Assembly (NCBI RefSeq): GCF_024436055.1
Contig: NZ_JANFNH010000041.1
Coordinates: 1 to 64,000 of the forward strand
Direction: 5' to 3'
DNA from: Streptantibioticus rubrisoli
Lineage (GTDB): Bacteria > Actinomycetota > Actinomycetes > Streptomycetales > Streptomycetaceae
DNA: 64,000 bases
Every line of letters begins with the position of its first letter. The first letter of the stretch is position 1. Shown piece after piece: positions 39,147 through 56,281 of the stretch. Below the pieces are notes generated by a model. The model did not search any database. It worked only from the letters and a program-made list of their open reading frames with translations, and had not been told where the DNA came from. The translations under genes and the position numbers were made by a program.

Positions 39147-39233
39147 AGGGAAAGCGTAGGCGAGAAGGGGGGTGGTCCCGCGAATGGGTTTCACGTACTG
39201 GGCACTCGGTGCGTCGGCCCCGGGCACGAACAA

Positions 39234-39270
39234 GACCCCGCTTCCAGCGTCACCGTCTGGCAGCGGGGTC
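39234..39270 (-). terminator. ancestral terminator of tRNA-Arg(CCG), now separated from its gene
   Basis: GACCCCGCT at 39234-39242 and AGCGGGGTC at 39262-39270 form a perfect 9-bp stem with an inner CCAG/CTGG pair, followed on the minus strand by TTGTT. It begins 20 bp past the displaced tRNA 3' end at 39290, where a tRNA terminator would sit before the island inserted. Confidence 0.65.
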
Positions 39271-39289
39271 CTTCGGCACCTCATCCAAG

Positions 39290-39336
39290 GTGCCCCCGGC
39301 AGGATTCGAACCTGCGCACACGGCTCCGGAGGCCGT
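39290..39336 (-). repeat. attachment site (displaced 3' part of tRNA-Arg(CCG))
   Basis: This 47-bp sequence is identical to 55548-55594 and covers the anticodon stem-loop, variable region, T-arm and 3' acceptor strand of tRNA-Arg(CCG), but the 5' half of the tRNA is absent here. It is the far end of an element that integrated into the tRNA 3' end. Confidence 0.9.
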
Positions 39337-40242
39337 CGGGTTCTCGCGCGTTTTCCCAGGCCAGACACTTACCTGACGGATTGCCAGGTCCGTCGTCCCG
39401 CGCATGTCCCGCGGAAATGAAATGCCCTATTTGCTCGCCTTGCCTCGATCATTCCCTGCGGCGGTCGATCTGTGTATCGTGATGTGGATCACGACCTCTC
39501 GGGCAAGCGTAGGGGGTGTATGTTGCGCCCTTCAATCGAACAGCGGGGCGTTCCGGAGTGCCCGGGCAAGCGGAGTGAGCGGGTTGCGCGCCTGGTTCGC
39601 TGGGGACGCTCGCCGGGGGCGAACGGTGGTCGGTGGCCGTGTCCCATGGCTTGTCGTTCGGATGTGCTGGGGGCGTGTGTCCATGTTGAGTTTCCGGCTT
39701 CCAGCGAGGGCTCGGCGAGCCGCTGGTCGCCGACGCTTTGCCCGCGGGCTGGCGCTGCGGCCCTGCCCTGCATGGTGAGTGGCGTTGGCCGGAGGGCGGG
39801 ACTCTAACGGGCCCCGACGGCGAACGTGCGAGTCGGACGCCGGGCGGATTGCCGACGGCTGCAGGCCGGCAGGCGAAGGCCGGCTCGGGCCGGTCAGTGC
39901 ATTCCGACGCCGGGACGTACAGTCGGGATGCGCGGTGGGGGCTGTGAGCCCTTTTGTGTCGTAGCCCTGGGTACGCGGACCACTGGTGAGTCGACGGTGC
40001 CCCGGAAGGCTTGGCCGCACCTGGTCGTGAATGCAGGCGGCTGTTATGTGAAGTTGTGGGCTTGGTTCGGGGTGCGGCCTTTCGACGTGCGGGCATGTAG
40101 TGGCGGTGGACTATTGATCCGCATGATCGCCGGTTTGGCTAACCGGCGATCCCGGGCTATGTTGCGCTGCTCGAAGCGGAGAACGTGACCGAGGGCGGTC
40201 TTCTGAACTCCCGTGCTGGACGGTGCGTTGTCGGGAGTTGAT
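39337..40242. other. gene-free 906-bp stretch inside the left end of the island
   Basis: ORFs here on both strands are rich in Pro, Arg and Ser and lack domain content, so I call none. The stretch contains an inverted repeat CGTGAT-gtgg-ATCACG at 39478-39493 and ends with a strong hairpin at 40125-40151. It may include arm-type integrase sites and remains of lost genes. Confidence 0.5.
40125..40151 (-). terminator. terminator of the unknown island gene
   Basis: GATCGCCGGTT at 40125-40135 and AACCGGCGATC at 40141-40151 form a perfect 11-bp stem with a 5-nt loop, about 90 bp past the stop codon of the leftward gene. Confidence 0.65.
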
Positions 40243-41643
40243 TCAGGGCGCGGACCTTCTGCGGATGGGCAGGATGCTCAGGGCCATGACGGTGCCGTCG
40301 TCGTGGAACGAGATCGGGCCGTTCCATTTCCCGGCTGCATCGGCGGTACTTATTTTCGAGCGGAGTTCGTAGGCCGCTTGCCGGTATTCTTCCACGCGGC
40401 CTTTCTTGATGAGTTCGTACAGTTCTGGGACCATGCCGGAGAATGCCTCGATGCGTACGGTCTCCATGCGGAAGACGTGGTCCGTGCCGACGAATTTCGT
40501 GTCGCCGACCTCGATGTCTGCGTCGTGGAAGCTGGAGGTGGCGGCGAACGTGGGCGCGGCGTAGTGCTTTTGTCCTTGGCGGGCGGTGAGGTATTGGGCT
40601 GTGTTTGGTCCTCCGCCCGCGAACGCGGTCAGGCCGGCTGCCGCGGTGCGGGCCAGGAGCTGGCCGAACCAGCTGAGGTCCTTCTCGGGCACCTGGAAGC
40701 CGTCGACAGTCCGTGCCCTTTTGCTTCTGCTGGCTGGTATGTGAATGGCGTTGGGGTAGGGGATGCCTGGCTTGTCTCGGATCTCTTCGTCGGCGTTTCC
40801 CGGGGCGCCCGGTGCGCGGACGGGGAGAAGCGCTTCGCCGGGTGATTGCAGGACGTTGACCACGACTCCGCCCTGGCCCATGAGTTCGGTGGACAGCATC
40901 AGGCACGGCGTGGTGTTCCACGGGCCGATCTGCATGCCCTCGGTCAGCTCGGAGCCCTTGACCAGCTGCTGGATCGTGGTGCTGCGGGTCCGGCTGGTCC
41001 GCTTGCTCGGCTTCTGGTGGTTTCCTCGGCAGACCGCGAACGTGACCTTCGACGGCTCGCCGGGCTTCCATGCCTCGATGAGGTAGTCAGGGCGGGGCCG
41101 TGAGCCCTTGTCCCGTTGGAAGCCGCCCAGGGCCCAGCCGGCTCGCAGTACCGTGCTCGTGTCCACGACCGAGACGATGTGGTCGGGGTAGCGCTGTTGC
41201 ACGATGTGTTCTGCTGCGGCGAGTCCGAAGCCGACGGCCAGCTCCCGCGCTTGCATGGCCTTGTACCACCGCTCGGAGCTGCGGCCTTTCTCGGTGAGAT
41301 CCATGGAGCCGGCGCGATTGCTGTCCAGTGCCTCGCAGTACTTCAGGCTCAGCCAGTGCTCCGCGAGTCCGCGTCCCATTCCCTGGCTGGCCAGCACGTA
41401 GCCCCGCGCCAGGGCGTGCAGTACCTGCCACGGTGTCAGTTCGATGGACCGGGCGCACTCGGCCTGTGTGACGGTGCGCAGTTCGGGTTTCCTGCGTAGT
41501 GCTTCCTGGCCCTTTTCCCGGCGTTTCTTGTCGATGGTCACCGCTGCGGAGTCGACATGGTCACAGAGTTCTGCCGTCGACCGGATGTGAACGCTCCTTT
41601 GGTGGCTGAGTGCGTTCAGGATCTGTCGCGCGGTTCTTGCCAT
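40243..41643 (-). CDS. unrecognised 466-aa island protein, possible degenerate PD-(D/E)XK-like fold
   Basis: I do not recognise this protein with certainty. The N-terminal third is helical (TVTQAECARSIELTPWQVLHA, VGFGLAAAEHIVQQRYPDH). The middle contains VSVVDTSTVLRAGWALGG, then RPRPDYLIEAWK and VTFAVCRGNHQ, then TTIQQLVKGSELTEGMQIG. The spacing resembles restriction-endonuclease-like proteins of Streptomyces in which PDY is followed by a LLECKG strand; here that strand reads FAVCRG, so the Glu and Lys would be lost. The C-terminal third is not typical of any family I know. Codon use has visibly more A/T than the core genes. The ATG at 41643 has GGGGGG upstream. It is divergent from the integrase. 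Confidence 0.75.
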   Translation of the reverse strand: MARTARQILNALSHQRSVHIRSTAELCDHVDSAAVTIDKKRREKGQEALRRKPELRTVTQAECARSIELTPWQVLHALARGYVLASQGMGRGLAEHWLSLKYCEALDSNRAGSMDLTEKGRSSERWYKAMQARELAVGFGLAAAEHIVQQRYPDHIVSVVDTSTVLRAGWALGGFQRDKGSRPRPDYLIEAWKPGEPSKVTFAVCRGNHQKPSKRTSRTRSTTIQQLVKGSELTEGMQIGPWNTTPCLMLSTELMGQGGVVVNVLQSPGEALLPVRAPGAPGNADEEIRDKPGIPYPNAIHIPASRSKRARTVDGFQVPEKDLSWFGQLLARTAAAGLTAFAGGGPNTAQYLTARQGQKHYAAPTFAATSSFHDADIEVGDTKFVGTDHVFRMETVRIEAFSGMVPELYELIKKGRVEEYRQAAYELRSKISTADAAGKWNGPISFHDDGTVMALSILPIRRRSAP

Positions 41644-41704
41644 GCATCCCCCCCACGGTGTCCGCGTGCCCTGGCCGACCGAGAACGGTAGTTCGGAGCA
41701 TTGG

Positions 41705-41731
41705 GGCGCATACAAGTGCGCATGATGCGCC
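41705..41731. promoter_or_regulatory. cluster of GCGCAT half-sites between the divergent island genes
   Basis: GGCGCAT at 41705-41711, then the palindrome GCGCAT-g-ATGCGC at 41718-41730 extended to ATGCGCC. Three half-sites lie in the 263-bp region between the unknown gene and the integrase gene, where both promoters must be. This looks like an operator, but the regulator is unknown. Confidence 0.45.
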
Positions 41732-41906
41732 ATGGTGCAGAACCGGCCACATGGTGACCGGGTAGGACCAGCGGCGGCGGAATCCATGCTGAACGTCCGA
41801 AAATCCGCACTCGTCAACCGGGCACCGCCCGAGTGCCCTCTTGCCGGGGGATGTTCGAGTGGATGAGCCGGGCAGTCATGCCCCCGCCGATCAGAAGGAG
41901 GCGAGC

Positions 41907-43289
41907 ATGGACCCGAACGAACGTCACGACGGAGCTACACCGGAGCCCGCACAGCCGGCGGACCAATCCCCGGCACAGCCGCACGGTGATGGACAGCCCG
42001 GCCGCCGCAGCGCGGTCGCGGACTTGGCGGGCGAGTTCGGTGCGGAGCTGGTGCGGGCCATCCGCGCGGGCCTGAGCCAGGGCGCCAGCCCTATGTACGG
42101 TCCCCGGGGTCCGTCACAGCTGACCTGGTATGCCTTCGCGACCGAGTACGCGCGGGCACACTGGCCCGGCCGGGCGGCGAAGACCCGGGACGAGGTCAGC
42201 GAAGCGCTGACAGCCGTCACTCTGGCGATGCTCTTCGACCTTCCTGGCCGGCCGAAGGAGCAGCTGCTGCGCCGTGCCCTGCGGCACTGGGCCTTTGTCG
42301 TGCCTGGGCCGGGGCAGGGGGAGATGCCGGCGGAGGACCGGCTGCTGCTGCAGTGGGTGGCGAAGGCGTCCCGGCCACTGGCCGACCTGCACGATCCGGT
42401 CCTGGCGCGCGATGTGCTGGAGTCACTGCGCCGCAAGCTCGACGGCGGAGAGGCGGCGGTGGAGACGATGCGCCGCAAGCGCAAGGTGTTGGTGCACGCG
42501 CTCCACTACGCCGTAGAACGGGGCGAGTTGGGCAGCCACCCGCTGAACAGGGTTCGCTGGCGGGTGCCCAAGCCGGCGGTGGCAGTGGATCCGCGGGTGG
42601 TGGCCAACCCCCACCAGGCACGGGATCTGCTGAGTGCCGCCTCCTACGTGGGCGGCTACCGCCGGGCCCGTGGCCGTCGGCTGGTCGGGTTCTTCGCCGG
42701 CATGTACTACGCGGGCTTGCGCCCGGAGGAGGCGGTCGCGGTGGCGCTGCCGGACTGCCGCCTGCCCCGAACCGGTTGGGGGCGCTTGATTGTGCACCGC
42801 ACGCTGCCTCAGGCGGGCAAACGGTGGACCGACACCGGCGAGTACCACGATGACCGCGGGCTGAAGAACCGCCCGCCGGGAGAAACACGGGTGGTCCCGC
42901 TGCCGCCGCACCTGGTGACCCTGTGGCGCGAGCACGTCGCCACGTTCGGCACGGCCGACGACGGCCGGCTGTTCTTCACCGAACAGGGCCGGATCATCAG
43001 CTACACCACCTACCACCGGGTCTGGCACGAGACCCGCGACCTCGCCCTGCCACCCGCACTCACCAGCACCCCGCTCGCGAAACGCCCTTACGACCTGCGG
43101 CACTCGGCGCTGTCCACGTGGCTGTGCGCGGGTGCGGACCCGGCCGAGGTCGCCCAGCGGGCGGGGAACAGCGTCGAGGTCCTGCTGAGCCGGTACGCAA
43201 AGTGTCTCTATGACCGGCAGTCCATCAACAACCAGCGCATCGAAGGGCTGTTGAGTGCCTACGACCGGCCACCCGACCTGGATCAGTAG
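41907..43289 (+). CDS. tyrosine-type site-specific integrase
   Basis: A 460-aa tyrosine recombinase, presumably the enzyme that inserted the island into tRNA-Arg(CCG). The catalytic domain shows the first Arg in YYAGLRPEEAVAV, the second box as YDLRHSALSTWL (Tyr in place of the usual first His), QRAGNSVEVLL, and the nucleophile Tyr in LLSRYAKCLYD. The N-terminal about 60 residues are low-complexity, and a core-binding domain lies in the middle. AAGGAGG precedes the ATG at 41907. It lies 2.6 kb from the nearest att site, farther than usual, with the unknown gene between. No excisionase gene overlaps it. Confidence 0.92.
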   Translation: MDPNERHDGATPEPAQPADQSPAQPHGDGQPGRRSAVADLAGEFGAELVRAIRAGLSQGASPMYGPRGPSQLTWYAFATEYARAHWPGRAAKTRDEVSEALTAVTLAMLFDLPGRPKEQLLRRALRHWAFVVPGPGQGEMPAEDRLLLQWVAKASRPLADLHDPVLARDVLESLRRKLDGGEAAVETMRRKRKVLVHALHYAVERGELGSHPLNRVRWRVPKPAVAVDPRVVANPHQARDLLSAASYVGGYRRARGRRLVGFFAGMYYAGLRPEEAVAVALPDCRLPRTGWGRLIVHRTLPQAGKRWTDTGEYHDDRGLKNRPPGETRVVPLPPHLVTLWREHVATFGTADDGRLFFTEQGRIISYTTYHRVWHETRDLALPPALTSTPLAKRPYDLRHSALSTWLCAGADPAEVAQRAGNSVEVLLSRYAKCLYDRQSINNQRIEGLLSAYDRPPDLDQ

Positions 43290-43331
43290 CGGCTGGGCCG
43301 AGAGGCGCCGCCCGATTGAGGATGGGCCGGG

Positions 43332-43745
43332 TCAGACTTTGATCATCGTGGCGTGTCCGCTGCACAGCGCGGTCAGGTCTTCGGGGTCCGAGGTGAGGAT
43401 GGTGACCGGGCCGGGGGCGGCTAGGGCGGTGGCGCTGAGCATGGCGTCGATGGCGTACTTGTGGCCGTGCAGGCCGGCGTCGGCGAGGAGAGCGGCGGCG
43501 TCGCGGGCGATCGGCTCGGTGACCGGTTCGACGACCAGGCGGGACAGCGTCCACTCCAGCGCCGGGCGGTTGATCCGAGGGTGGACCACCTCCACCAGGG
43601 TGGCCGCAGACGTGATCACCCGGAGGTCGTCGGCGCGGGCCAGGGCGAGCCAGCCGGTGACCGTACGGTCGCGCAGCACGGCCTTGGCCAGCCCCTCGCT
43701 GTCCAGGACCAGGGTGCCGCCGGGAACAGTGCGGGAGCGGGTCAC
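43332..43745 (-). CDS. PIN-domain toxin (VapC-like)
   Basis: A 137-aa PIN-domain ribonuclease. The acidic residues expected for metal binding are in LVLDSEGLAK, TLVEVVHPR, KYAIDAMLSATAL and LTSDPEDLTAL. It would cleave RNA, commonly tRNA, when free of antitoxin. Its GTG start overlaps the antitoxin stop codon in GTGA, so the pair is translationally coupled. It is convergent with the integrase gene and probably stabilises the island. Confidence 0.88.
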   Translation of the reverse strand: MTRSRTVPGGTLVLDSEGLAKAVLRDRTVTGWLALARADDLRVITSAATLVEVVHPRINRPALEWTLSRLVVEPVTEPIARDAAALLADAGLHGHKYAIDAMLSATALAAPGPVTILTSDPEDLTALCSGHATMIKV

Positions 43746-44002
43746 GCGGCGCTCGCCCCACCCGTCTGCTGCTGTCGGGCCTGGTGGAGCTGGTCGCGCA
43801 GCGCCTGGATCTCCTCGTCGGTGACGGGACCGTGCTCGGCCTCGGCGACCTGGATGAGTTCGTTGAGATTGTCGCGCTCGATCTGCCGGGCCACGGCGGC
43901 GGCGACGTAGGCGGACAGGCCGGAAGGGCCGCTGCGGGCCTTGGCGGCCTCGGCGATGTCGCGCGGCATGGTGATCGAGTACTTGCCGGTAGGCTCGCTC
44001 AT
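43742..44002 (-). CDS. VapB-like antitoxin, ribbon-helix-helix type
   Basis: An 86-aa antitoxin with an N-terminal ribbon-helix-helix (KYSITMPRDIAEAAKARSGPSGLSAYVAAAV) that binds DNA and a charged C-terminal tail (TDEEIQALRDQLHQARQQ) that would wrap the PIN toxin. The ATG at 44002 is preceded by the direct repeat AGGTAG-gat-AGGTAG, which contains a TAGGAT -10-like element. The mRNA may therefore be leaderless, and the repeat may be the autoregulatory operator. Confidence 0.88.
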   Translation of the reverse strand: MSEPTGKYSITMPRDIAEAAKARSGPSGLSAYVAAAVARQIERDNLNELIQVAEAEHGPVTDEEIQALRDQLHQARQQQTGGASAA

Positions 44003-44418
44003 GCTACCTATCCTACCTCTGATCCTCCCATCCGAGGCAGGGATGTAGAGATCGTCGCGCTGCTTGCCCCGCTGTGCGCTCGGGCGTCGCCCGAGTTGGC
44101 CAACGGGGCAGGTGATCCGGACGCCATCGACTCGGGCTCGTTCAGCCCGGAGCGGTATGAGGAATACGAGCAGCACACACCCTGGAAGATGATCTTCTTG
44201 AACGTGTCCGTCAGGAAGATGCGCGCACTGGGAGATGTATCAACGGCCCATCTCGGCCGAGACCTTGCGCAAGCGATTTCGTATCGGAGCGGCCAGGTCC
44301 AGGACGCTGGTGGAAATGGTCCGGAAGGACGGTTCGCCGTGGGCAACGTAGGCGGGGCTCGGAACGGCCAGCCCTCCACCCCGCTCGTTCGCGCCTCGGC
44401 GATGAAGGGGAGTAGGCC
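44003..44418. other. 416-bp gap upstream of the toxin-antitoxin pair
   Basis: It holds the antitoxin promoter (AGGTAG direct repeats at 44004-44018) and otherwise no ORF I can support. A minus-strand reading ending at 44240 (with FRTISTSVLDLAAPIRNRL) could be the tail of a lost gene, but it has no start or domain. Confidence 0.4.
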
Positions 44419-45270
44419 CTACCCGGATTCCCCTGCTCCGGGCGGTGCGGGGCCGGGGCCGGCTTTGGTGATGTCGGCGGGCTTTTGCGGGGATGCGGCT
44501 GCGGCCGTTTCCTGGGCGAGGAAGGATCCGAGTTCGCCGATGGTGCTCATGAGGGGGGCCGGGAAGACGACGGTGGTGTTCTTGTCCAAGCCGATCTCCA
44601 CCAGGCTCTGAAGATTGCGGAGCTGCAGTGCGAGTGGGTGGGCCATCATCGTGTCCGAGGCGGCGCCGAGGGCTGCGGCGGCGAGCGATTCCCCTTCGGC
44701 ATTGATGATCTTGGCGCTCTTCTCCCGCTCCGCCTCTGCCTGGCGGGCCATCGCGCGCTTCATACTGTCGGGTAGCTGGATGTCCTTCAGTTCGACCAAG
44801 GTGACCTCGACGCCCCATTCGGCGGTCGTACCATCGAGAATCTCGCGGATGCCCAGGTTGATACGGTCCGTCTCCGACAGCGTCTCGTCCAGCGTGTGCG
44901 GGCCGACGACCTTGCGCAGCGTGGTCTGTGCGATCTGGTTGGTCGCCGCATGGACATTCTCGATCGCGATGACTGACTTCACGGCGTCGACAACCCGGAA
45001 GTAGGCGACCGCCGAGACGTCGACACTGACGTTGTCCCGGGTGATGATGCCCTGGGACTGGATCGGCATCGTGACGATCCGCAGTGACACCCGGTGCAGG
45101 ACATCGACGACCGGGATGATGAACCGCAGCCCGGGGGAACGTGCTCCTACGAGCCGGCCGAACCGGAACAGCACTCCTTTCTCGAACTGCCTGACGACCT
45201 TCACGGCCATGGCGAGTACCAGCAGGACGAGAAGTGCGACGATAACCACAAGGAAGATCAGAACTCCCAT
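44419..45270 (-). CDS. slipin / stomatin-like SPFH-domain membrane protein
   Basis: A 283-aa protein with one N-terminal hydrophobic hairpin (VLIFLVVIVALLVLLVLAMA) and an SPFH domain: QFEKGVLFRFGRL, SPGLRFIIPVVDVLHRVSLR, ITRDNVSVDVSAVAYFRV and WGVEVTLVELKDIQLPDSMKRAMARQAEAEREK. Slipins form large oligomers on the membrane and are linked to membrane microdomains and stress. The ATG at 45270 has GAGGAG upstream. No NfeD-type protease partner is next to it. Confidence 0.93.
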   Translation of the reverse strand: MGVLIFLVVIVALLVLLVLAMAVKVVRQFEKGVLFRFGRLVGARSPGLRFIIPVVDVLHRVSLRIVTMPIQSQGIITRDNVSVDVSAVAYFRVVDAVKSVIAIENVHAATNQIAQTTLRKVVGPHTLDETLSETDRINLGIREILDGTTAEWGVEVTLVELKDIQLPDSMKRAMARQAEAEREKSAKIINAEGESLAAAALGAASDTMMAHPLALQLRNLQSLVEIGLDKNTTVVFPAPLMSTIGELGSFLAQETAAAASPQKPADITKAGPGPAPPGAGESG

Positions 45271-45857
45271 GGCGTTGCTCCTCAGGATGAGGGCCGCATC
45301 GTTCCGCACGAGGCCCTGAAAATGCGTCGGCGGAGGAGGGGTACTGAGCGCTCCGCTCGCCGGGCCCGTTTTGCGTGGCCCTGATGCTACGTCTGTTACG
45401 TGCCGGGGTGGTTGGCCCCGATAGGTTCGGGGACGGTGGTTTTTATAACAAGCATTGCTCGTTTTTCAGGCGCCGAATGGTCCCAAGCGCACCGTAGTCG
45501 ACATTCCAAGTCTGACCGGCATCCGCCGGTACAGTCCCCGCCAGCAGATGGGCGAGCGCCGTGACTGCGGTGCCCATCCATGCGCGTGAAGAAACCCGCT
45601 GGCCCCCCGCGACCGGTGTCTCGGCGTCGGGCGGTTCTCCTCTCCCGACCACGCCTCTCGAAGGCCGGTGGCGCGTCTGGTGGCCGCATCGTTGTCCTGG
45701 CCGCTGACCTCTCTGTAGCCGCTGTGCGGCTTCGCGGAGGAGTAGGCGCCCCACCTCTGGGGCCCGATCTCCGACGTGTTCACAGTGCACGGTAGCCCCA
45801 CGTGGTGATTGCGATCGGGACCACCGTCGGGCGCTGGTCAAGAAGGCCGAGGTGCGT
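45271..45857. other. 587-bp gap between slipin and transporter genes, with a possible gene remnant
   Basis: No intact gene. A minus-strand segment at about 45443-45577 reads VTALAHLLAG...WNVDYGALGTIRRL, which resembles the C-terminal end of a histidine phosphatase family protein, but the upstream part is not readable in one frame. The rest must hold the promoters of the two divergent genes. Confidence 0.35.
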
Positions 45858-48158
45858 ATGGGTCGAGTCCGCGATCGGCGGGCCTGGCGGTCGGAGCCGG
45901 ACCCGGGAGTGACACTGAGTGGTATGCCGGGCACGGATCCGAACCTGAGTCGAAACAGCGGAGAGCGGGACGTCGGTGCGCCGGGCCCGTCCGCCATGCT
46001 GCCGACACTGGATGAGGAGCAACTTCGGGTTCTGCGACGCGTCGGACGGGAGTGGGATCGGGTGTCCGGCGATCCTGGGTTGTGGCGGCGTGCGTTGCCT
46101 GTGGATCCCGACCTCGGGAGTTACCCCGCTCCTGGGGAGATTCGGCCGGCCCGCTTCGGCCGCTTCGTGCCCATCACCCCGCCCGGTGGTCGGCCGCCCG
46201 CCGTCGAAGCGGCCGGTGAGGCCGAGATCCCGGCGTCGTTGCCTGGGCGCGTCGGCTACAACGTGCGTCGCGTCGTGCTCGGGGCTCCGCTGAAGAGCAC
46301 GGCGATCGCCCACGAGCGGATGCGCAAGTTGGTGGCGTTGCCGGTGCTCTCCGCCGACGCGCTCTCGTCGGTCGCCTACGGTCCCGAGGCGATGCTCGCC
46401 ATCCTCGTCCTCGGCGGCACCGCCGGGCTGCGCTACTCACCCCCCGTCGCAGCGACCATCGTCTTCCTGATGCTTGCCGTCGGCGTGTCCTACCGCCAGA
46501 CGATCCGTGCGTACCCGCACGGCGGCGGGTCGTACATCGTGGCCAGCGACAACCTCGGCCGCGTCCCCGGACTGGTGGCCGCCGCCGGGCTGATGACCGA
46601 CTACATCCTGACGGTCGCCGTCTCGATCGCCTCGGGCATCGCGGCGATCACCTCGGCGGTTCCGTCCCTGGTCCCAGACACCGTCCCGATCGGAGGCGCA
46701 GTGATCGCCGTACTGCTCGCAGGAAACCTGCGCGGCGTACGCCAGGCAGGCGCACTGTTCGCCGCACCCACGTACGCGTTCATCATCGCGGTCTTCGCCC
46801 TCGTGGCCGTCGGCCTGTACGACGCCGCAGGCCGCGGCTTCCACCCCACACCCACCCCGCACCTGACCGCCACGGAGGGGATCAGCGTGCTTCTGGTGCT
46901 CCGCGCCTTCGCCTCCGGATCGACGGCCATGACCGGCATCGAGGCGATCTCCAACGCCGTACCGGCCTTCACACCCGTCGAATGGCGCAACGCCCGAACC
47001 ACACTGACCTGGATGGTCGGCCTGCTCATCGCCTTGTTCGCAGGCACGATCGCCATGGTCCAGCTCGACGGCGTCGTCCCCAACACCACCGAGACCGTGC
47101 TCTCCCAGCTCGCCCACCGCAGCTTCGGCACCGGCTTGATGTATGTCTTCACGCAAGCGGCGACGGCGGCGATCCTGCTGCTCGCGGCGAACACCGCCTA
47201 CAACGATTTCCCCCGCGTCCTGTTCCTCCTGGCCCGCGACCACCACGCACCGCGGATCTTCCTGCGGCTGGGTGACCGCCTCGCCTTCAGCAACGGCATC
47301 ATCGTGCTCTCGGCGGCGGCAGCCGTCGTCTACGTTGCGTTCGGCGGCAAGACCGAACCTCTGATCCCGCTGTTCGCCGTCGGCGTTTTCCTGGCCTTCA
47401 CGATGTCGCAGGCCGGAATGGTGGTCCACTGGTGGCGTCTGCGCGACCGCCACTGGCGCAAGAGCCTGTTCTTCAACGCCACCGGAGGCTTGCTCTCGGC
47501 GATCGTCTTCATCACCGCCGGCATCACCAAGTTCACCGCCGGAGCGTGGGTCGCCATCCTCGCCGTCGCGTTGTTCATCCTTGTCACGATGCGGATCCGG
47601 CACCACTACGCCAGGGTCGCCAAGGCTGTCGCGCTGCATCCCCACGCCATCGAGGTGCCCCAGCAGACACTGGCCCTGCGGATCGGCGAGCAGCAGGCGG
47701 CTCGGGCCGCTTCGCAGGCAGGGGAGAGCGAGGCGGAAGCGGAGGAGACCCCGGAGGAGGTCCAGCACCTGGTGGTCGTGCCGGTCGCTGCGTTGGACCT
47801 TGCCGGTATGCGCGCGCTCGCCTACGCGGCCTCGCTCCAGCAGCCCGTCCTCGCGCTCCACGTCAGCCCCGACGAGGACGAGGCCGAACGCTTCCGCGCA
47901 TACTGGCGCCTGTGGGGCGACCACCTACCGCTGGAAGCCATCCTCTCCCCGTACCGGGCGATCGTCGTACCACTCGTCAACTACATCGAGTCCTTGCACC
48001 GCCAACGCCCCGATGTCACCCTGACGGTCATCCTCCCGGAGATCGTCGTACGGCACTGGTGGCACCGTGTCCTGCACAACCACATCGCCGCACGCCTGCG
48101 CCGCGCACTCCGGCCCCTGCCGAAGATCGTCGTCACGACCGTCCCCTTCCACGTGTAG
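45858..48158 (+). CDS. APC-superfamily transporter, KimA-like K+ uptake protein
   Basis: A 766-aa membrane protein. After an unusual about 130-residue N-terminal extension comes a 12-helix APC core that starts VLGAPLKSTAIAHERMRKLVALPVLSADALSSVAYGPE, the signature of the KimA/YdaO family of c-di-AMP-controlled potassium importers, and continues with YPHGGGSYIVASDNLGRVPGL. The C-terminal about 150 residues form a soluble domain with a universal-stress-like fold (HLVVVPVAALDLAGMRALAYA). The ATG at 45858 has GAGG upstream; starts at 45924 or 45996 are possible. I prefer K+ transport to amino-acid transport on family grounds. Confidence 0.85.
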   Translation: MGRVRDRRAWRSEPDPGVTLSGMPGTDPNLSRNSGERDVGAPGPSAMLPTLDEEQLRVLRRVGREWDRVSGDPGLWRRALPVDPDLGSYPAPGEIRPARFGRFVPITPPGGRPPAVEAAGEAEIPASLPGRVGYNVRRVVLGAPLKSTAIAHERMRKLVALPVLSADALSSVAYGPEAMLAILVLGGTAGLRYSPPVAATIVFLMLAVGVSYRQTIRAYPHGGGSYIVASDNLGRVPGLVAAAGLMTDYILTVAVSIASGIAAITSAVPSLVPDTVPIGGAVIAVLLAGNLRGVRQAGALFAAPTYAFIIAVFALVAVGLYDAAGRGFHPTPTPHLTATEGISVLLVLRAFASGSTAMTGIEAISNAVPAFTPVEWRNARTTLTWMVGLLIALFAGTIAMVQLDGVVPNTTETVLSQLAHRSFGTGLMYVFTQAATAAILLLAANTAYNDFPRVLFLLARDHHAPRIFLRLGDRLAFSNGIIVLSAAAAVVYVAFGGKTEPLIPLFAVGVFLAFTMSQAGMVVHWWRLRDRHWRKSLFFNATGGLLSAIVFITAGITKFTAGAWVAILAVALFILVTMRIRHHYARVAKAVALHPHAIEVPQQTLALRIGEQQAARAASQAGESEAEAEETPEEVQHLVVVPVAALDLAGMRALAYAASLQQPVLALHVSPDEDEAERFRAYWRLWGDHLPLEAILSPYRAIVVPLVNYIESLHRQRPDVTLTVILPEIVVRHWWHRVLHNHIAARLRRALRPLPKIVVTTVPFHV

Positions 48159-48518
48159 AGGAGAGGCTGCCCCCGTCCGACGCGGGTGTAGGGAAGCGGT
48201 CACGTCACCCCTGGCGTTCTACGGCCGCCCCGGTGCCAGGTGTCTGGTAGCTGCGGCCCGCGCGACCCAGGCCGACGTCGCCCTTGCCGACTCGCGTCAC
48301 GACATCCGTGCCACCCGGACCGGCGCAGGCGAGAACCCCTGCCACCGGGCTGCGCCGCCCGCTCACCCATGGCTCATGCAGCGGGCCCCGACCGCGAAAT
48401 CCACCGCCAGGCGCGGTTTCGCGGCGCCTGCCCACGGCGCCCCACCCCCGCTTGCCCGTGGCACCCGCGAGGAGGCGCGCTCAGCCCGTCGTGACAGAAC
48501 ACCCGTCCAAGGAGGACC
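48159..48518. other. 360-bp gap, nothing recognised
   Basis: Several ORFs cross this stretch but are low in domain content. It ends with a strong ribosome-binding site AAGGAGG at 48507-48513 for the next gene. No clear promoter or repeat can be named. Confidence 0.4.
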
Positions 48519-49424: not shown

Positions 49425-49605
49425 CGATGGGCCCCGCTCCCTGTGGCACCCGCAGGATCCTCAGTGCCCCACTGGGGAGTACGTCGTACTGGTAGGTGAC
49501 CGCCGACTCGCCTTCGGTGATATCGGTGAAGACGATGTCTGTCGCAGGCTCGTCCGCGTACTCCTTGGGTGTGCGGTTCTCGACCAATTTGATAAAAACG
49601 CCCAT
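49357..49605 (-). CDS. small hypothetical protein
   Basis: An 82-aa acidic protein (KLVENRTPKEYADEPATDIVF, SAVTYQYDVLPSGALRILRVP, LAPGLWFRVEGLWHG) predicted as mostly beta strand. There is no clear ribosome-binding site before the ATG at 49605, so it may be leaderless. Codon use is plausible and nothing better competes on the other strand. I do not recognise the family. Confidence 0.55.
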   Translation of the reverse strand: MGVFIKLVENRTPKEYADEPATDIVFTDITEGESAVTYQYDVLPSGALRILRVPQGAGPIVNSVLAPGLWFRVEGLWHGTTL

Positions 49606-50215
49606 GTTTCAACGTTAGGGCCATCTTGTGGTTCGCGCTCGCCACGGGCATGCCGAAGTGGCGTGACCGACTGGAAAGGGTGCGATGTGCCTGCTTTCGC
49701 GCAGGTCGGCAGCACCCACGTTACGCCGCTGAGGCGTCGGAGTGGTGGGTCCGTCCGTCTGCCGAACCGGATCACAGGCCACTCGTCGCCCCGGGGCGTC
49801 GACCGGCATCGACGGGCAGCCGCCTACCGGCGGCATATCCTTTGATCATCACGTCGATACGGTCGAACATCCCAGGTGCACGCCAAAGTCACGGAACGAC
49901 CGACAGGTAGAGAAAATCATGAATTGTGCAGCGGTGGATACGTTCATCGCCTGAAATGTCGCAACGACACGCGCCAGCCGCCGACCTGACGAGATAGCCA
50001 GAAGAACGGTGGCGAAACCTGGAAAGCACGACGGTCCGAGCCGAAATCGGTGAGTGCGGAGAAAACCGAGCCCCGTCGATGGACCCGTCCGGCCTCCGGT
50101 CGGAGTAACCTTAAGGAATACCGGGATCATTTCGTATATCGACTTCCGTGTCGGTGTCGCTCTCGGCGCACAAAAATCCCGGGCACTGGAATACGCCCGG
50201 GGGCAGGTCTGCATC
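49606..50215. other. 610-bp gap upstream of the DUF5994 gene
   Basis: No supportable gene. The last 100 bp are A/T-richer with a possible promoter and end in the hairpin CCCGGGC (50178-50184) / GCCCGGG (50195-50201), which overlaps the G-rich translation start region. A short reading frame, MNCAAVDTFIA, at about 49919-49954 may be chance. Confidence 0.4.
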
Positions 50216-50791
50216 ATGACCATGACCACCGACCACACGTCGGCAACAAACGAGCGCCTCTTCCCGCCACCGGCCCGAGTGTCCCTGACCCCGGCGAACG
50301 CCGCCCTCGGCCTCCTCGACGGCGCCTGGTGGCCCCACTCCCGCGACCTCACACGCGAACTCCCCGCTCTGACAGAGGCGTTGGACCGCCTCTGGGGGCG
50401 AATCACCCGCGTCACAGTCAACCCTCATCTCTGGCCGGTCATCCCGCGGAAGGTGTCCGTGGGCGGGCATGTGGTGAAGGTAGGTTGGTTCATCGCCGAG
50501 CAGGACCCGCACAAGCTGCTGCTCATCTGCGAGGACGTCGGCCGAAGGGACCTGCTGGTGGTCCCGCCGCAGACCGGTGTGACCGCGGCCGCCCGGCTGA
50601 TGTCCGCCGCAGCCGACCCGCACAACACGCTCACCGCCACCGGACTCATGGCGCAGGAAGCGGCTCGGAACGCCGCAGAGATCGACCGCACCCTGGAAGA
50701 AGAGTGGGAGTCCGAAGGCGGACTCCTGGCAACCTCTCCCGAACTCCCTGGGACGCCGACAGGCTTTCCGCGCCAGGCCGTAGGGGTGTGA
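50216..50791 (+). CDS. DUF5994-family protein
   Basis: A 191-aa soluble protein with RVSLTPANAALGLLDGAWWPHSRDLTRELPALTEAL and VTVNPHLWPVIPRKVSVGGHVVKVGWF, features of the actinobacterial DUF5994 family (from memory), which is usually found near stress genes. Function unknown. The ATG at 50216 follows a small hairpin that could mask the ribosome-binding site; 50222 is an alternative. Its stop codon overlaps the next start. Confidence 0.8.
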   Translation: MTMTTDHTSATNERLFPPPARVSLTPANAALGLLDGAWWPHSRDLTRELPALTEALDRLWGRITRVTVNPHLWPVIPRKVSVGGHVVKVGWFIAEQDPHKLLLICEDVGRRDLLVVPPQTGVTAAARLMSAAADPHNTLTATGLMAQEAARNAAEIDRTLEEEWESEGGLLATSPELPGTPTGFPRQAVGV

Positions 50792-51090
50792 GAGTGATGG
50801 GGACCATCGTCACCGTGGCGGTCATTCTCGCGATGATCGCCGCGGGAGGGATCCTGATTCATCTACTCAACGTTCAGCACGACGAGCGCGTCGCCGTCTA
50901 CCCCTACAGCCGCTTCCGAATGGGGCGCCGCGGCCGGACACCCGCCAAGCCGATGGCTCCGACCGCGCAGCATCCCGGGCTCGTCGGCACTCCGCCCGCC
51001 CGCGACACGCGCCGCGACCACCGTGACGGCGGCCGAGGGCGGCTGCGCCCGCGACGCCGCATGGTGCGCGCCCGGCGCCAGAATGCGTGA
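50788..51090 (+). CDS. small basic membrane protein coupled to the DUF5994 gene
   Basis: A 100-aa protein with one N-terminal transmembrane helix (VTVAVILAMIAAGGILIHLL), then an Arg/Pro-rich cytoplasmic tail (RFRMGRRGRTPAK, RGRLRPRRRMVRARRQ). The GTG at 50788 overlaps the upstream TGA by GTGA; an ATG lies nine bases further on. The coupling implies that it works with DUF5994. Confidence 0.65.
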   Translation: MRVMGTIVTVAVILAMIAAGGILIHLLNVQHDERVAVYPYSRFRMGRRGRTPAKPMAPTAQHPGLVGTPPARDTRRDHRDGGRGRLRPRRRMVRARRQNA

Positions 51091-51320
51091 GCCCGCTTAC
51101 CCGCGGGCGCCTGCGCCGGTAAGCCACGTCCTGCGTTGCCGTCGGTCACCTGTAAAAGCACACCGACTCCGGTACCGACTCCGTCCGGCCCGAGGACGCG
51201 CAAGTGCCGGAAGGTCGGGTGAGGTGACGCTCCTTGGCGGAGTTCGCCCTTGATCGTCTTGTTCTCTCCCGTGCGCTCACCGGGAAATCGGAAGCCCGTG
51301 GCCAGCGCCAAGTGGTGGTC

Positions 51321-52562
51321 CTAGGGCACGATCGCCAGGTGGTCGGCGGTGCCGCCCCGCCACTCGATGAGGAAGACCGTCGCGTCGTCGCTGGTGATCC
51401 CGCCCCGCTCCTGCTTTAGCATGTGGGACAGCGTACGAACCATCGCGCGCACCCCTGTCTCCGCACGCCCGACGCGCATGACGACGTCGACCAATTGTTC
51501 CAGACCGAACTGCTCCCCACCGACCTCGTGCTCTTCGATGAGACCGTCGGTGAAGCACAGCACCCGATCGCCGGGCTGCAGCATCTGCTCGCTGACGCGG
51601 GGCTCCTCACCACCGAAGCCGACCGGCAAGGTCGTCCGGCTCTCCAGCACCCGGATGACATCGTGGTTCCGGATCAGCAGTGGAGCCGGGTGGCCGGCGT
51701 TCACCCACTGCAAGTGTCCGGTCGCGGTGTTCAGGCGCATCATCTGCGCGGTGACGAAGTGCTCGGGCCCGAACTGCTCCGCGATGACCTGGTCCATGAA
51801 CGCGTAGATCTCGGACAGACCGACATCGGCGCGCCTGGAGTGGCGGTAGGCACCAATGGCAGCCGTCGCCATCACAGCAGCGCCCAGGCCGTGGCCCATC
51901 GCGTCGATCACGGCAACGTGCAGGACGTCGTCGTTGAGTGCGTAGTCGAAACTGTCGCCCGCGACCTTGTAAGCGGGCTCCAGGATCCCCGCCACCTCGA
52001 CCTGCGGGACGGACAACCTCAGCGGCGGCAGCAGTGACCACTGGATCTCCGCGGCCACGCTCATCTCGCCACAACGCCGGGCCTGGAGGAACTGGTCGGT
52101 GTAACTGCCCTTGGTGACCAGCAGGTCCGCGACCAGACGCGTGAGCCGCCGCAGCAGCCGCCGGTCGTCGTCATCCAGGGTGTCCACGGTGAGGGCCAGC
52201 ACCCCCACCTGGTCGCTGCCGTCCAACAGCGGCAGGTACATCCGAACGCCGTCGGCCTGCGGTACCTCGACCACAGCCGCGCCCAGGAATGCCCTCCCGG
52301 CGTGGGAGTCGTCAATCGGTTCGGGCTCACCGGCCACGAGCCGCCTGCCGGGCAGCGGCACCAGCGTCAGCTGTTCGTAGTCCTGCAGGAGCACCGACAC
52401 GTCACGGCCGCCGATCTTGCCCACTTCCTCCGCGATCAGCGGAGCGATCAATTGCGGAGGCAGCTCGTGAGCGCGATCCAGCAGCAGACCCAGCAGCCGC
52501 TCACCGAACCCTTCGGACCGATCAACCGCGACTTTACCGGGTTTCCGCGCACCCTCCGCCAT
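51321..52562 (-). CDS. SpoIIE-family PP2C phosphatase with GAF-like sensor domain
   Basis: A 413-aa protein. The N-terminal half is a GAF-like domain (DVSVLLQDYEQLTLVPLPGRR, GVRMYLPLLDGSDQVGVLAL); a linker helix with SVAAEIQWSLLPPL leads to a C-terminal SpoIIE-type Mn-dependent phosphatase domain with AGDSFDYALND, HVAVIDAMGHGLGAA and GDRVLCFTDGLIEEH. Such enzymes dephosphorylate STAS anti-anti-sigma factors and activate stress sigma factors. The ATG at 52562 has GAGGGG. The STAS partner is not encoded in the island; the chromosomal STAS protein at 8453-8776 is one of many candidates. Confidence 0.92.
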   Translation of the reverse strand: MAEGARKPGKVAVDRSEGFGERLLGLLLDRAHELPPQLIAPLIAEEVGKIGGRDVSVLLQDYEQLTLVPLPGRRLVAGEPEPIDDSHAGRAFLGAAVVEVPQADGVRMYLPLLDGSDQVGVLALTVDTLDDDDRRLLRRLTRLVADLLVTKGSYTDQFLQARRCGEMSVAAEIQWSLLPPLRLSVPQVEVAGILEPAYKVAGDSFDYALNDDVLHVAVIDAMGHGLGAAVMATAAIGAYRHSRRADVGLSEIYAFMDQVIAEQFGPEHFVTAQMMRLNTATGHLQWVNAGHPAPLLIRNHDVIRVLESRTTLPVGFGGEEPRVSEQMLQPGDRVLCFTDGLIEEHEVGGEQFGLEQLVDVVMRVGRAETGVRAMVRTLSHMLKQERGGITSDDATVFLIEWRGGTADHLAIVP

Positions 52563-52580
52563 AACCCCTCATACCATCAC

Positions 52581-52703
52581 GTGCCCCTCCATCCCGCGAA
52601 CCGCACACATGCGGGGGTGGCTCCGCTCGCCGTGGCGGTGCTCATCCCCGCTGGCGCGCACGCCTTCAATGCCGACGTGGCCCTGGTACTGGTCGTGGTC
52701 ATC
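52581..52703 (+). pseudogene. remnant of a DUF4118 (sensor-kinase-like) membrane domain
   Basis: About 40 codons read VAPLAVAVLIPAGAHAF and NADVALVLVVVI, which matches the two first membrane segments of actinobacterial DUF4118 proteins (from memory). After that the reading becomes Arg/Pro-rich with no domain, so only the start of the gene remains. Confidence 0.4.
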
Positions 52704-52829
52704 CGGCAGTCGGTGCACCCGAACGAGCGGCCGTGCGCCCTGGACGGACGCACCCACCGGGCGGGTAGTTGGTGCCCGCAGGCTCGCGCAGGAGGCTGGA
52801 GCAGACGTCCCACAAGGAAAGGTGCCACC

Positions 52830-53384
52830 GTGGCGATCACCCCCGCCCGTCCAGCGGAACCCCTGGCCGTGCGGCCGTACTCGGTCGCTGACCAGGACGC
52901 GGTGCTCGCCCTGGTGGAGGGCGACCGGCTGCCTGGGCAGCCGCAGGCGACGCCCGGGATGCTCGACCAGGCGCTGGCCGGACACTCGCCGGTGGACGGC
53001 GACTGGTGGGCCGAACTGGACACGCCCCGCACCGATGTCGTGCACGATCCGAACGGGCGAGTGCGGGGAGTCGTCTCCTAGGCGACGCGCCCCCGGGACG
53101 GGGCCGGGCTGATCCTGTGGCTGCACGCCGAGGAGGAAGACCAGACGGTCGCCGAGACGCTGGTCGGCCGCGCCCTCGACCAGCTTGGGCCACGCACCGT
53201 GCACGCGTTCGAGTTCGCCTCCGCGCTCACCCTTGGGATGGAGGGCCTGCCGGTACGCAACCGCCCGGCATTGGAAGCAGCCGGGTTCACCGGTCGCGAC
53301 CTGTGGCGCTATGTCCACCGCGGCCTCGACGGCCCGCTGCCGACCACCACCTACCCCGTCGCGACTATAGGAGGTGCGCCGTGA
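52830..53384 (+). pseudogene. GNAT-family acetyltransferase interrupted by one amber codon
   Basis: The reading frame starts at a GTG with AAGGAAAGG and runs LAVRPYSVADQDAVLALVE to GRVRGVVS, meets TAG at 53079-53081, and continues in the same frame with ATRPRDGAGLILWLHAEEED, LGPRTVHAFEFASALTLGM and ALEAAGFTGRDLWRYVHRGL up to TGA at 53384. The two halves together make a normal GNAT of about 184 residues. From family alignments in memory the interrupted codon is normally Tyr, so a single TAC or TAT to TAG change explains it. The frame after the stop is otherwise perfectly intact, suggesting recent loss. Confidence 0.85.
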
Positions 53385-53795
53385 CCGTGCTGCCCCGCCT
53401 ACTGCTGGGCGACGTCGAACAACTGGTGGACCGAACCCCGCCGATTTCGCTACGCGCGGCGGTGCACACCGTCTGGGAGGACCGTGGGCAGACTCGCGTG
53501 CGCGCGTTGCTCACCCAGGCCCCCGATGCCCCGCGTGGAACTGGTGAGCCTGCGCTCCCATGACACAGACACCGGGGCGGCGGCCCTTGAGGCAACCGTC
53601 GCCATCACCGGCCCCGCCACCGCACGGCTGGGACGAGTCCTCACCCTCGTATGGCTTAACCCTGCTGTCCATGCCGTCCGCTGGACCCTGCCGCCCGGAG
53701 CGCAGCGCAGTACCGGAGCATGCCCTGGCCTGAAGAGGGCCGGGTGTCCTTTGATCGTGCATGGCGTCCGGGCCCATATTGGGAAAGGAAGCTGA
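53381..53795 (+). pseudogene. frameshifted gene coupled to the GNAT gene, family unknown
   Basis: A GTG at 53381 with AGGAGG overlaps the GNAT stop. The first frame gives VEQLVDRTPPISLRAAVHTVW and RVRALLTQAPDAPR and stops at 53563. A different frame then continues at about 53528 with PRVELVSLRSHDTDTG, AALEATVAITGPATARLG and LTLVWLNPAVHAVRWTL up to 53795. The two parts are probably one protein broken near 53525 by a +1 insertion or 2-nt deletion. I do not recognise the family. Confidence 0.7.
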
Positions 53796-53808
53796 AGGGG
53801 GCTTCGAT

Positions 53809-54245
53809 ATGAAAGTGCCAGCGCGCCCACAGACTGAGGACGGCGTCCTGGGAGCTCTTCTCCTGATCGTCTTGGAAGGTGTCGCGCTCGTCATTGCCCG
53901 AGCCCGGTACGTACCGCTGGTCAGCAGTGCTCTGGTCGGTGGCGCGACCTGCACGGTGATCGTCGTACTCGCCGTGGCGCACCACCACCGGACAGCCACC
54001 CGGAAGGCCCGCCAGCGATTGCCGGAAGCCGTGGACGAGCCGCTGTTCAGCGCCGACGCGTTGGCAGGCTTCCCTATGGAAGCCTTCCGCCCGCTCTTGC
54101 TCGCCCCGGACCCCCTGACTTGAACCGCCTGTACACCGCCTGGATCTTCGCCACCCACGGTTACGACGCGGCCTGATCGAAGGGCACCCAGACCTGGCCG
54201 CTGACATCGTCCATACGCTGATCAAGGCGGCACATCAGCGAGGCC
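53809..54245 (+). pseudogene. gene with two frameshifts, small membrane/helical protein
   Basis: The ATG at 53809 starts a protein with two membrane helices (GALLLIVLEGVALVIARA, LVGGATCTVIVVLAVAHH) and then DALAGFPMEAFRPLLLAP. That frame stops at 54123, and a second frame continues DLNRLYTAWIFATHGYDAA up to TGA at 54174. A third frame continues IEGHPDLAADIVHTLIKAAHQ. The second break fits loss of one G from TGGATC (Trp-Ile), leaving TGATC. The combination reads as a single decayed gene. Confidence 0.65.
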
Positions 54246-54568
54246 AATACCGCACCGCGTTGACGGCTCCGCACGCCAGGACGAAGTTTCCCGACTGCCT
54301 CGATGCCTGCCAACACACAGGGATGCGCGCAGGTCGGCGAGTTGGGCGGTGTGGCCCAGGCCGGGGATTTTCGACCTGCAGACCCCGACAGACGGTGACG
54401 GTGCAGCGGGCGGCGCTGCGGACCAGGCGGTCATGACCCACCGAGGCAATGACCAGTCCTGGCGGAACATGCTCATGCGCTGGCGGAGGAGAACTAGGCA
54501 CGGTATCTGTCCGAGTATTCGACCCTCGGTGTAGCCGATGACATCGACCCGTATGCCATGGAGGCAAA
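54246..54568 (+). other. remnant region upstream of the coupled small genes
   Basis: The last 25 codons before 54570 read ARYLSEYSTLGVADDIDPY-AMEAK, preceded across an in-frame TAG at 54495-54497 by HAHALAEEN. The phrase looks like the C-terminal end of a real protein, coupled by GTGA to the gene at 54569. Upstream the frame is not readable. This is probably another inactivated island gene. Confidence 0.4.
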
Positions 54569-54775
54569 GTGACCGCCCACGACGAGCTCCACAAGTGGCT
54601 GACGAAGTCCATCAGCACGCCCACCGCTGAGCGACTGCTGCGTGACTACGCCCACGAGCTGGCGGAGGAGATCCGGGGCGCCGCAACAGGCGTGAACGGC
54701 GGCACCGCCGATTTCCCGCGTGGCATGCGTGAGGCCGCCGACCTGATCGATCCATGCCCTCAGGAGGAGGAGTGA
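54569..54775 (+). CDS. small AICE/phage-type hypothetical protein
   Basis: A 68-aa protein starting TAHDELHKWLTKSISTPTAERLLRDYAHELAEEI, a pattern typical of small proteins of Streptomyces integrative elements and phages. Function unknown. The GTG at 54569 overlaps the stop of the upstream remnant, and its stop codon overlaps the next GTG, so three frames are coupled. Confidence 0.65.
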   Translation: MTAHDELHKWLTKSISTPTAERLLRDYAHELAEEIRGAATGVNGGTADFPRGMREAADLIDPCPQEEE

Positions 54776-54972
54776 CCGACCACACTCACCCGCACAGCGA
54801 CTCCGAGGGCTGGTGCTACTGGCGGTGCGCGGAGGGCATCACGGCTGAGACCGGCGCAACGTCGGTGTGCCGCTGCACGGCGGCCCCTGCCTCGTCAAGG
54901 GTGGGGCGGGCGCTGGTCCCGCCCCACCCGCCGCGGGAGCCACCGTGTGATCGCTCGACATGGCGGGGCTAG
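54772..54972 (+). CDS. small Cys/His-containing hypothetical protein
   Basis: A 66-aa protein with HTHPHSDSEGWCYWRC and SVCRCTAAP; the Cys and His residues could bind a metal. The GTG at 54772 overlaps the upstream stop codon. The Pro/Arg-rich C-terminus may not be native. Family unknown. Confidence 0.5.
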   Translation: MTDHTHPHSDSEGWCYWRCAEGITAETGATSVCRCTAAPASSRVGRALVPPHPPREPPCDRSTWRG

Positions 54973-55547
54973 GTGTAATGCCAGAGGCCAGTGACTTTGC
55001 GGCTGCCGGGACCGCCGGAGGACAGTGCTTCCGCAGGTGAGACGGTCGAACGGCCTATGTCACTGGTATTGCCTCTAGGCCGCCTCGTCGCGCACCCGCG
55101 ACGCATCCACAGCTGTGGACAGCTGACCCACGCTTCACCATGGGCGGCATGCACCGAGGGCGCAGGGGCCGGTGCCGTCACGCCGGCGGCGACGATCAGC
55201 CACCTGAACCGGCTCGGTAGTGTCAGGCCGAACGGTAACGACCCACCAGACCGTTTGCATTTCCGTGTGGCGTCAGCCACATTCAGGCAGGTCGCACGCG
55301 GTTTTCGGGAGTCTACGATGCTGGGTTCCCCGGCCTGAGGTGCGTCGGTATATTTGGCCGTGAGTACGGCCAACGAGCGTTAACGAAGGACCCTTGACCT
55401 GCAGTTATATGTCAGCAGAAGGGGTCAGACCTAGCGTCGGGGACGCCGCGCGGCTCGAAAGAGCAACGGTCAATAGACCGTGTGCGTTTTGGCATGAACG
55501 CAAGAAGCCCTGATCTGCATTCCTGCAGGTCAGGGTCTTAGTCCGGA
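54973..55547. other. 575-bp right end of the island
   Basis: No gene can be supported; ORFs on both strands (54991-55338 and 54969-55373) overlap each other and lack domains. It contains TGACCTGCAG at about 55393 and its inverted partner near 55523, which could be arm-type integrase sites, and a hairpin next to the tRNA. Confidence 0.4.
55508..55535 (-). terminator. element-supplied terminator of tRNA-Arg(CCG)
   Basis: CCCTGATCTGCA at 55508-55519 pairs with TGCAGGTCAGGG at 55524-55535 with one G-T mismatch. On the minus strand it begins 13 nt after the tRNA 3' end and is followed by CTTCTTG. It replaces the original terminator now at 39234-39270. Confidence 0.7.
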
Positions 55548-55594
55548 GTGCCCCCGGCAGGATTCGAACCTGCGCACACGGCTCCGGAGGCCGT
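55548..55594 (-). repeat. attachment site within tRNA-Arg(CCG)
   Basis: Identical over 47 bp to 39290-39336. It corresponds to the anticodon stem-loop through the discriminator base of the intact tRNA, so integration preserved tRNA function. Confidence 0.9.
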
Positions 55595-55620
55595 TGCTCT
55601 ATCCCCTGAGCTACGGGGGC
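55549..55620 (-). tRNA. tRNA-Arg, anticodon CCG
   Basis: A 72-nt cloverleaf on the minus strand: acceptor GCCCCCG/CGGGGGC, D-arm GCTC-AGGGGATA-GAGC, anticodon stem ACGGC/GCCGT with loop CTCCGGA (anticodon CCG), and T-arm GCAGG-TTCGAAT-CCTGC with discriminator A. CCA is not encoded. It decodes CGG, a frequent codon in this genome, so an intact copy is needed. A TAGGGT -10-like element lies upstream at about 55651-55656. Confidence 0.97.
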
Positions 55621-56241: not shown

Positions 56242-56281
56242 CCTCCGCACCCGCCGACCGGCCCCGGCGTACCCTCGCCCC

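Follow-up and report, generated by a model that had tools for sequence, protein, structure and literature searches.

A probably non-autonomous, AICE-derived integrative island in the tRNA-Arg(CCG) gene of Streptantibioticus rubrisoli

Actinomycete integrative and conjugative elements (AICEs) of the RepSA/TraB type, which are found in tRNA-Arg genes of Streptomyces, carry repSA, an HTH_17-type excisionase gene (xis) and traB by the integrase gene (int), and in other AICEs Prim-Pol is the replication initiator; tandem AICEs in one tRNA-Arg are known from S. avermitilis (PMC3218068), and accretion with possible cis-mobilisation at tRNA-Arg was described in Streptomyces (PMC9513070). Defective AICEs (DAICEs) retain traB by definition (PMC9513070). 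Since the survey of actinobacterial elements in the latter work used TraB as signature, an integrase lineage with neither TraB nor RepSA would be overlooked by it. In this article we describe an island of such a lineage in the tRNA-Arg(CCG) gene of the soil actinobacterium Streptantibioticus rubrisoli, located at 39290-55594 of the analysed stretch, called here the window (64,000 nucleotides, positions 1 to 64,000 of contig NZ_JANFNH010000041.1, assembly GCF_024436055.1). With a probability of about 0.7 we consider it a 16.3-kb non-autonomous, AICE-derived integrative island of a rep-less lineage, the movement of which would proceed via another element.

Insertion at tRNA-Arg(CCG) and the integrase lineage

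The initial annotation, made from the sequence alone, had placed an intact tRNA gene at the right end of the island and an exact 47-bp copy of its 3' end at the left, and independent searches recovered both. ARAGORN called an intact tRNA-Arg(CCG) on the minus strand (69 bits in Rfam), and in a genome-wide search with up to three mismatches allowed the 47-bp repeat had two copies only in the 7.26-Mb genome, the number of exact pairs expected by chance being about 1e-13 and thus negligible. Comparison with relatives lacking the insert had also been proposed, and both available genus-mates (G001 and G002) possess tRNA-Arg(CCG) without the island, with native sequence directly after the tRNA. Positions 39232-39336 of the window align at 89% with the empty site of G001, covering both the tRNA 3' end and the native hairpin that follows it, therefore the left copy is a genuine attR. 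At the right end a substitute hairpin supplied by the island adjoins the tRNA, and the alignment indicates that it is kept in most sister islands. The empty sites together with attL and attR demonstrate that the element was inserted in the 3' half of tRNA-Arg(CCG) and that the tRNA was restored.

Besides the tRNA gene Rfam gave one match only, a marginal one (29.8 bits, cut-off 29) in which the attR copy together with 25 bp of island DNA (39291-39361) was read as a full-length tRNA. ARAGORN called no tRNA there, and we ascribe the match to the tRNA fragment in attR.

A replication initiator, TraB and an excisionase had all been reported as not visible, and profile searches agreed with this. 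In the whole host genome the RepSA profile gave 9 matches and the FtsK-domain (TraB) profile 21, none of them on the window contig, where HTH_17 (the AICE excisionase type, other Xis types being outside the search) had no match either. The same three profiles all matched in the positive controls, two AICEs residing at the same tRNA (G019, contig C1: 2942075, 2942356 and 2944397; G029, contig C16: 4393, 8601 and 9940), and RepSA and a TraB-like gene were both near int in three AICE controls. Neither RepSA, FtsK nor HTH_17 was matched in the four mapped sister islands (G014, G319, G419, G422); in 11 further genomes with related islands RepSA was not found near int, nor was a TraB-like gene in the seven of these tested for FtsK, some of the contigs being short. 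The Pfam scans covered selected island frames, among which there was no relaxase, and Prim-Pol was outside the whole-island profile search. The lineage is accordingly devoid of repSA, traB and an HTH_17-type xis. The RepSA matches of the host are located on contigs C7, C11, C28, C41, C54, C60, C61 and C82, therefore this genome probably holds several AICEs; the one on C41 adjoins tRNA-Arg(TCT), and the integrase there is 37% identical to that of the window.

The tyrosine integrase which had been located within the island contains the conserved boxes AGLRPEE, DLRH and GNSVEVLLSRY, and its gene looks intact; the protein has no Pfam match, a weak XerC match only, and none among 50,697 phage records. 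Its relatives were searched in 298 genomes of the family, and the best 30 places were inspected with 1.5 kb on each side. At the 12 places (window included) where the identity was at least 66%, no RepSA or Xis adjoined int, while all 18 integrases of 60-63% identity (including L199 at 61%) were accompanied by both, 16 of the 18 having a tRNA-Arg(CCG) gene or fragment within the inspected stretch. In the maximum-likelihood tree the rep-less integrases formed a single clade (14 rows, support 100/99), the sister of which is a clade of AICE integrases (18 rows, 99/99); other AICE integrases fell outside both, and one further rep-less integrase (L024) was placed elsewhere. It was thus demonstrated that the rep-less state is common to a clade across genera and is not that of one broken copy, and that the integrases of the island and of RepSA-type AICEs residing at this tRNA have a common origin. 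The rep-less lineage, which is widespread, seems to have branched off from self-transmissible elements that occupy the same tRNA gene.

The conserved module and CoreB

Next to int, and divergent from it, stands the gene of a 466-amino-acid protein which we call CoreB and which is most likely the unknown protein of the initial annotation. Between attR and the end of the integrase gene the window is 84% identical to Streptomyces sp. ISL-100 over 4.1 kb, 81% to TRM49041 over 4.0 kb, and 80-85% to S. caeruleatus nearly throughout; SCUT-3 and R302 have retained int and CoreB at 79%. Against intact sisters the dN/dS ratio (nonsynonymous to synonymous substitution rates) of the window was 0.16-0.21 for int, with the S. 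caeruleatus integrase rows left out of the comparison, and 0.24-0.28 for CoreB, which argues that both genes are maintained by purifying selection. Outside this module the cargo varies among the sister islands: SCUT-3 and R302 carry an IetAS-matching gene pair and a helicase-nuclease resembling PADLOC PDC-S37, ISL-100 a TarS-like glycosyltransferase and exported proteins, and the toxin-antitoxin pair of the window recurs in S. caeruleatus (twice), TRM49041 and G296. The alignments establish for the subclade of the window a conserved 4-kb block, consisting of attR, a non-coding arm, CoreB, int and often the PIN toxin-antitoxin pair, and the rest can be regarded as exchangeable cargo.

Homologues of CoreB were present in 75 of the 395 sampled genomes of the host family; 79 loci were retrieved for the neighbourhood study and 64 members for alignment and Pfam. 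Not one of the 64 could be assigned convincingly to a Pfam family, and CoreB had no match in NCBIfam or PADLOC, nor in viral contigs or plasmids. It adjoins int in the subclade of the window, and in G105 it lies within the same att-bounded stretch. As a marker of all rep-less islands CoreB was rejected: several such integrases stand without a neighbouring CoreB, and several genomes with rep-less integrases have no CoreB match at all.

Large superfamily 1 (SF1) helicases of three kinds, namely with an MTES_1575 nuclease, with a caspase, or a DUF4011 helicase-nuclease, are encoded near CoreB homologues, and 33 of the 79 loci have one of them within 6 kb; the helicase-nuclease, a protein of about 280 amino acids and CoreB occur together in 15 loci. 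This association with helicase genes suggests a possible role of CoreB in immunity, of which it may be an undescribed component; nothing specific on a helicase/caspase system with a protein like CoreB was found in the literature. Since CoreB occurs in about one fifth of the family's genomes, has no Pfam model and recurrently neighbours immune-type helicases, it is a concrete candidate for defence screens.

Two of these arrangements were seen repeatedly. In L122 (4488-11326; also in L129, L146 and others) an SF1 helicase-MTES_1575 nuclease, the protein of about 280 amino acids (without Pfam match) and CoreB make up a candidate three-gene operon of immune type. In L110 (9992-15646; also L102, L114, L115, L117, L120 and L132) a large SF1 helicase comes after CoreB, in most cases with a small gene between the two; the L110 helicase is fused to a caspase-like peptidase. 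Additionally, in the more distant loci L121, L128, L129, L131 and L134 a short piece of a tRNA-Arg 3' end is found 120-450 bp downstream of CoreB, so CoreB stands at island ends there as well.

The AlphaFold model of CoreB is confident (mean predicted local distance difference test, pLDDT, 86). A sequence-profile search against solved structures gave nothing significant, and Foldseek found no significant match to the whole model or to the domain. In the structural comparison most of the listed rows were PD-(D/E)XK nucleases, with Z scores of at most 5.5, under the trust level of the tool, thus the model points weakly to a restriction-endonuclease-like fold of the core. Glu134, Glu190, His209 and Gln226 are invariant in the 64 members, among which no invariant ExK lysine was found at the expected strand, as assigned by eye.

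Cargo and rearrangements around the tRNA

The features of the island and its borders are collected in Table 1. The cargo which had been named initially (toxin-antitoxin pair, slipin, KimA-like transporter, DUF5994 and SpoIIE proteins) was borne out by Pfam matches, and in the case of the antitoxin by overlap and co-conservation, this protein having no match in Pfam, NCBIfam or PADLOC. A PIN domain and an overlapping gene, co-conserved in sister islands, give the layout of a putative VapBC-type pair. PADLOC recognised no known defence gene among four genes of the window (CoreB, int, PIN and antitoxin). The permease, slipin and SpoIIE genes have DNA relatives of about 80-88% identity in other genera, where they are dispersed over the genomes, and weak matches only in the genus-mates G001 and G002, hence they are not core genes of the locus; a core gene order common to sister genomes, which would have spoken against an island, is contradicted by this.

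Table 1. Positions of the island features and its flanks in the window
Feature	Position	Strand	Basis
Native tRNA-downstream sequence (hairpin), outside the island on the left	39232..39289	-	alignment with empty-site G001
attR, 47-bp copy of tRNA-Arg(CCG) 3' end	39290..39336	-	exact repeat, two genome copies only
Non-coding attR arm	39337..39598	.	kept in ISL-100, TRM49041, S. caeruleatus, A3M-1-3 (alignment)
CoreB, unnamed actinobacterial family	40243..41643	-	homologues, dN/dS
Tyrosine integrase, AICE-type	41907..43289	+	conserved boxes, profile, tree, dN/dS
PIN-domain toxin, VapC-like	43332..43745	-	PF01850 above cut-off; recurs in sister islands
Putative antitoxin, overlapping the PIN gene	43742..44002	-	overlap and co-conservation
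Slipin (SPFH/Band 7), cargo	44419..45309	-	PF01145, E 2e-37
APC/KimA-like K+ or amino-acid permease, cargo	45852..48158	+	PF13520, PF02705
DUF5994 protein, cargo	50054..50791	+	PF19457, E 1.5e-37
SpoIIE-type phosphatase, cargo	51321..52562	-	PF07228, E 4.5e-43
GNAT-like frame with in-frame stop, decayed; named by eye	52835..53384	+	frame translation; pieces without Pfam match
MgtC/SapB C-terminal fragment, decayed	53484..53795	+	partial PF21770 match just below cut-off
attL arm with substitute hairpin by the tRNA	55446..55547	.	alignment, kept in sister islands
attL core within the tRNA	55548..55594	-	exact repeat
tRNA-Arg(CCG), intact	55548..55620	-	ARAGORN; Rfam

Relative to all relatives examined, where the order is AAA gene, tRNA, response regulator and NrtL-like gene, the block of attR, island, tRNA and response regulator is inverted in the window between the NrtL-like and AAA genes. 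The breakpoints (39208-39232 and 56240-56278) are outside the 47-bp repeats and have no evident repeats of their own, and none of the other genomes examined shows the inversion. That the 47-bp repeat was born from this inversion and not from integration is extremely improbable; the inverted block is what speaks for such an origin, but the breakpoints do not coincide with the repeats, the SCUT-3 and R302 islands lie between the same repeats without this inversion, and those of ISL-100 and S. pyxinae are also placed between such repeats. Inversion as the source of the repeat was therefore rejected as contradicted by the sister islands.

Several att fragments were found at tRNA-Arg(CCG) in G332 and G394, which is consistent with tandem insertion. 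Att fragments lie 148-196 kb from this tRNA in G332 (contig C3: 232719, 380899, 414501) and G105 (contig C2: 6118216, 6138606, 6314842), and suggest very large insertions or accretion at the tRNA.

Possible routes of movement and comparison with known systems

The non-autonomous island of a rep-less lineage could function as follows. Its own tyrosine integrase would perform the integration, as homology predicts, and the toxin-antitoxin pair might penalise loss of the island. Excision and transfer would need another element, either an AICE in the same cell which could provide Xis and TraB in trans, or an AICE in tandem at the same tRNA, with which the island could be excised as a composite. The island is probably moved by helper AICEs or by cis-mobilisation. 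Several observations weigh against this explanation: excision, a circular form and transfer were not observed; int or CoreB is broken or missing in several sister islands (ISL-100, A3M-1-3, S. pyxinae); part of the cargo is decayed (the GNAT-like frame and the C-terminal fragment of MgtC); and an array of TraB-recognition-like (TRS/clt-like) 8-mers was not found in the island. Furthermore, the short sister contigs leave room for more distant replication or transfer genes there, and an excisionase without HTH_17 domain would escape the search.

The initial annotation had left the choice between a decayed element and a satellite. A plain decayed AICE, from which repSA, xis and traB were deleted in the present host and which is now a fixed remnant, would share its integrase ancestry with AICEs as observed, and the decay is real in the two cargo parts mentioned; the integration module, however, is intact and its int and CoreB genes are under selection, the 4-kb block with the same ends is conserved in other species, and the rep-less state belongs to a clade across genera. 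These three facts are better explained by an ancient loss with later diversification than by a recent local one, and we regard the plain remnant as unlikely. Satellite status of the island is possible. In its strict form, a true conjugative satellite which resembles integrative and mobilizable elements (IMEs) and is mobilised specifically by AICEs sharing the tRNA site, through their Xis and TraB, it may apply, but we hold it only tentatively and at less than even odds: the sister AICEs use the same tRNA, potential helpers are abundant judging from the 9 RepSA matches in the host, att fragments are arranged in tandem at tRNA-Arg(CCG), and accretion with possible cis-mobilisation has been described at such genes (PMC9513070), whereas a clt-like repeat array was not found, and the AICEs of the host genome that adjoin related integrases occupy other tRNAs.

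It is doubtful that the element is a defence island serving chiefly phage resistance, with CoreB as its immunity protein. The IetAS-like and PDC-S37-like genes of the SCUT-3 and R302 sisters and the helicases near 33 of the 79 CoreB loci would agree with that, but CoreB of the window stands without helicase partners, PADLOC was blank for the four genes submitted, and the other cargo of the window looks stress- or envelope-related. Equally speculative is the broadest proposal, namely an undescribed actinobacterial family of conjugative satellites which arose from tRNA-Arg(CCG) AICEs and kept AICE-compatible att sites, with one subclade bearing CoreB as a new family of immunity proteins that would act with several different helicase-nuclease or helicase-caspase partners.

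Among the described systems, PAISt of Streptomyces turgidiscabies is likewise a Streptomyces island excising in modules by site-specific recombination, but it uses another site (an 8-bp palindrome at the bacA 3' end) and is much larger (PMC4057263). Of the marks of a phage satellite (PICI-like), namely a phage-type integrase and genes for packaging or interference, the first has no backing in the phage records, where the integrase is without match, and CoreB is likewise without match in viral contigs, no search aimed at packaging genes having been made. Relatives of the large SF1 helicases of the PADLOC PDC-S37, Hhe and Mokosh-type systems adjoin CoreB homologues, whereas none of the PADLOC, Pfam and NCBIfam models tested covers CoreB itself. 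With IMEs the island has in common an integrase of its own, cargo and no transfer machinery of its own, and it may work like one of them; an IME typically also brings a relaxase and oriT, neither of which was recognised here (the relaxase within the Pfam-scanned frames). DAICEs are also short of key modules and can stand in tandem with AICEs at tRNA-Arg (PMC9513070), but they keep traB, which the island does not have, so it is not a DAICE in that sense, and the rep-less integrases form a separate clade. Integration at a tRNA 3' end, direct repeats and a tyrosine integrase, by which AICEs are characterised, are all found in the island, and the RepSA/TraB AICEs share with it the same tRNA-Arg(CCG) site, a related integrase (60-63%) and a similar size; judged by the features tested it is nevertheless not an AICE, since RepSA, TraB and the HTH_17-type Xis are all absent. 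With a rep-less clade and a RepSA/TraB clade side by side at the same tRNA, the question whether satellites of AICEs exist can be put to a clean, naturally paired comparison.

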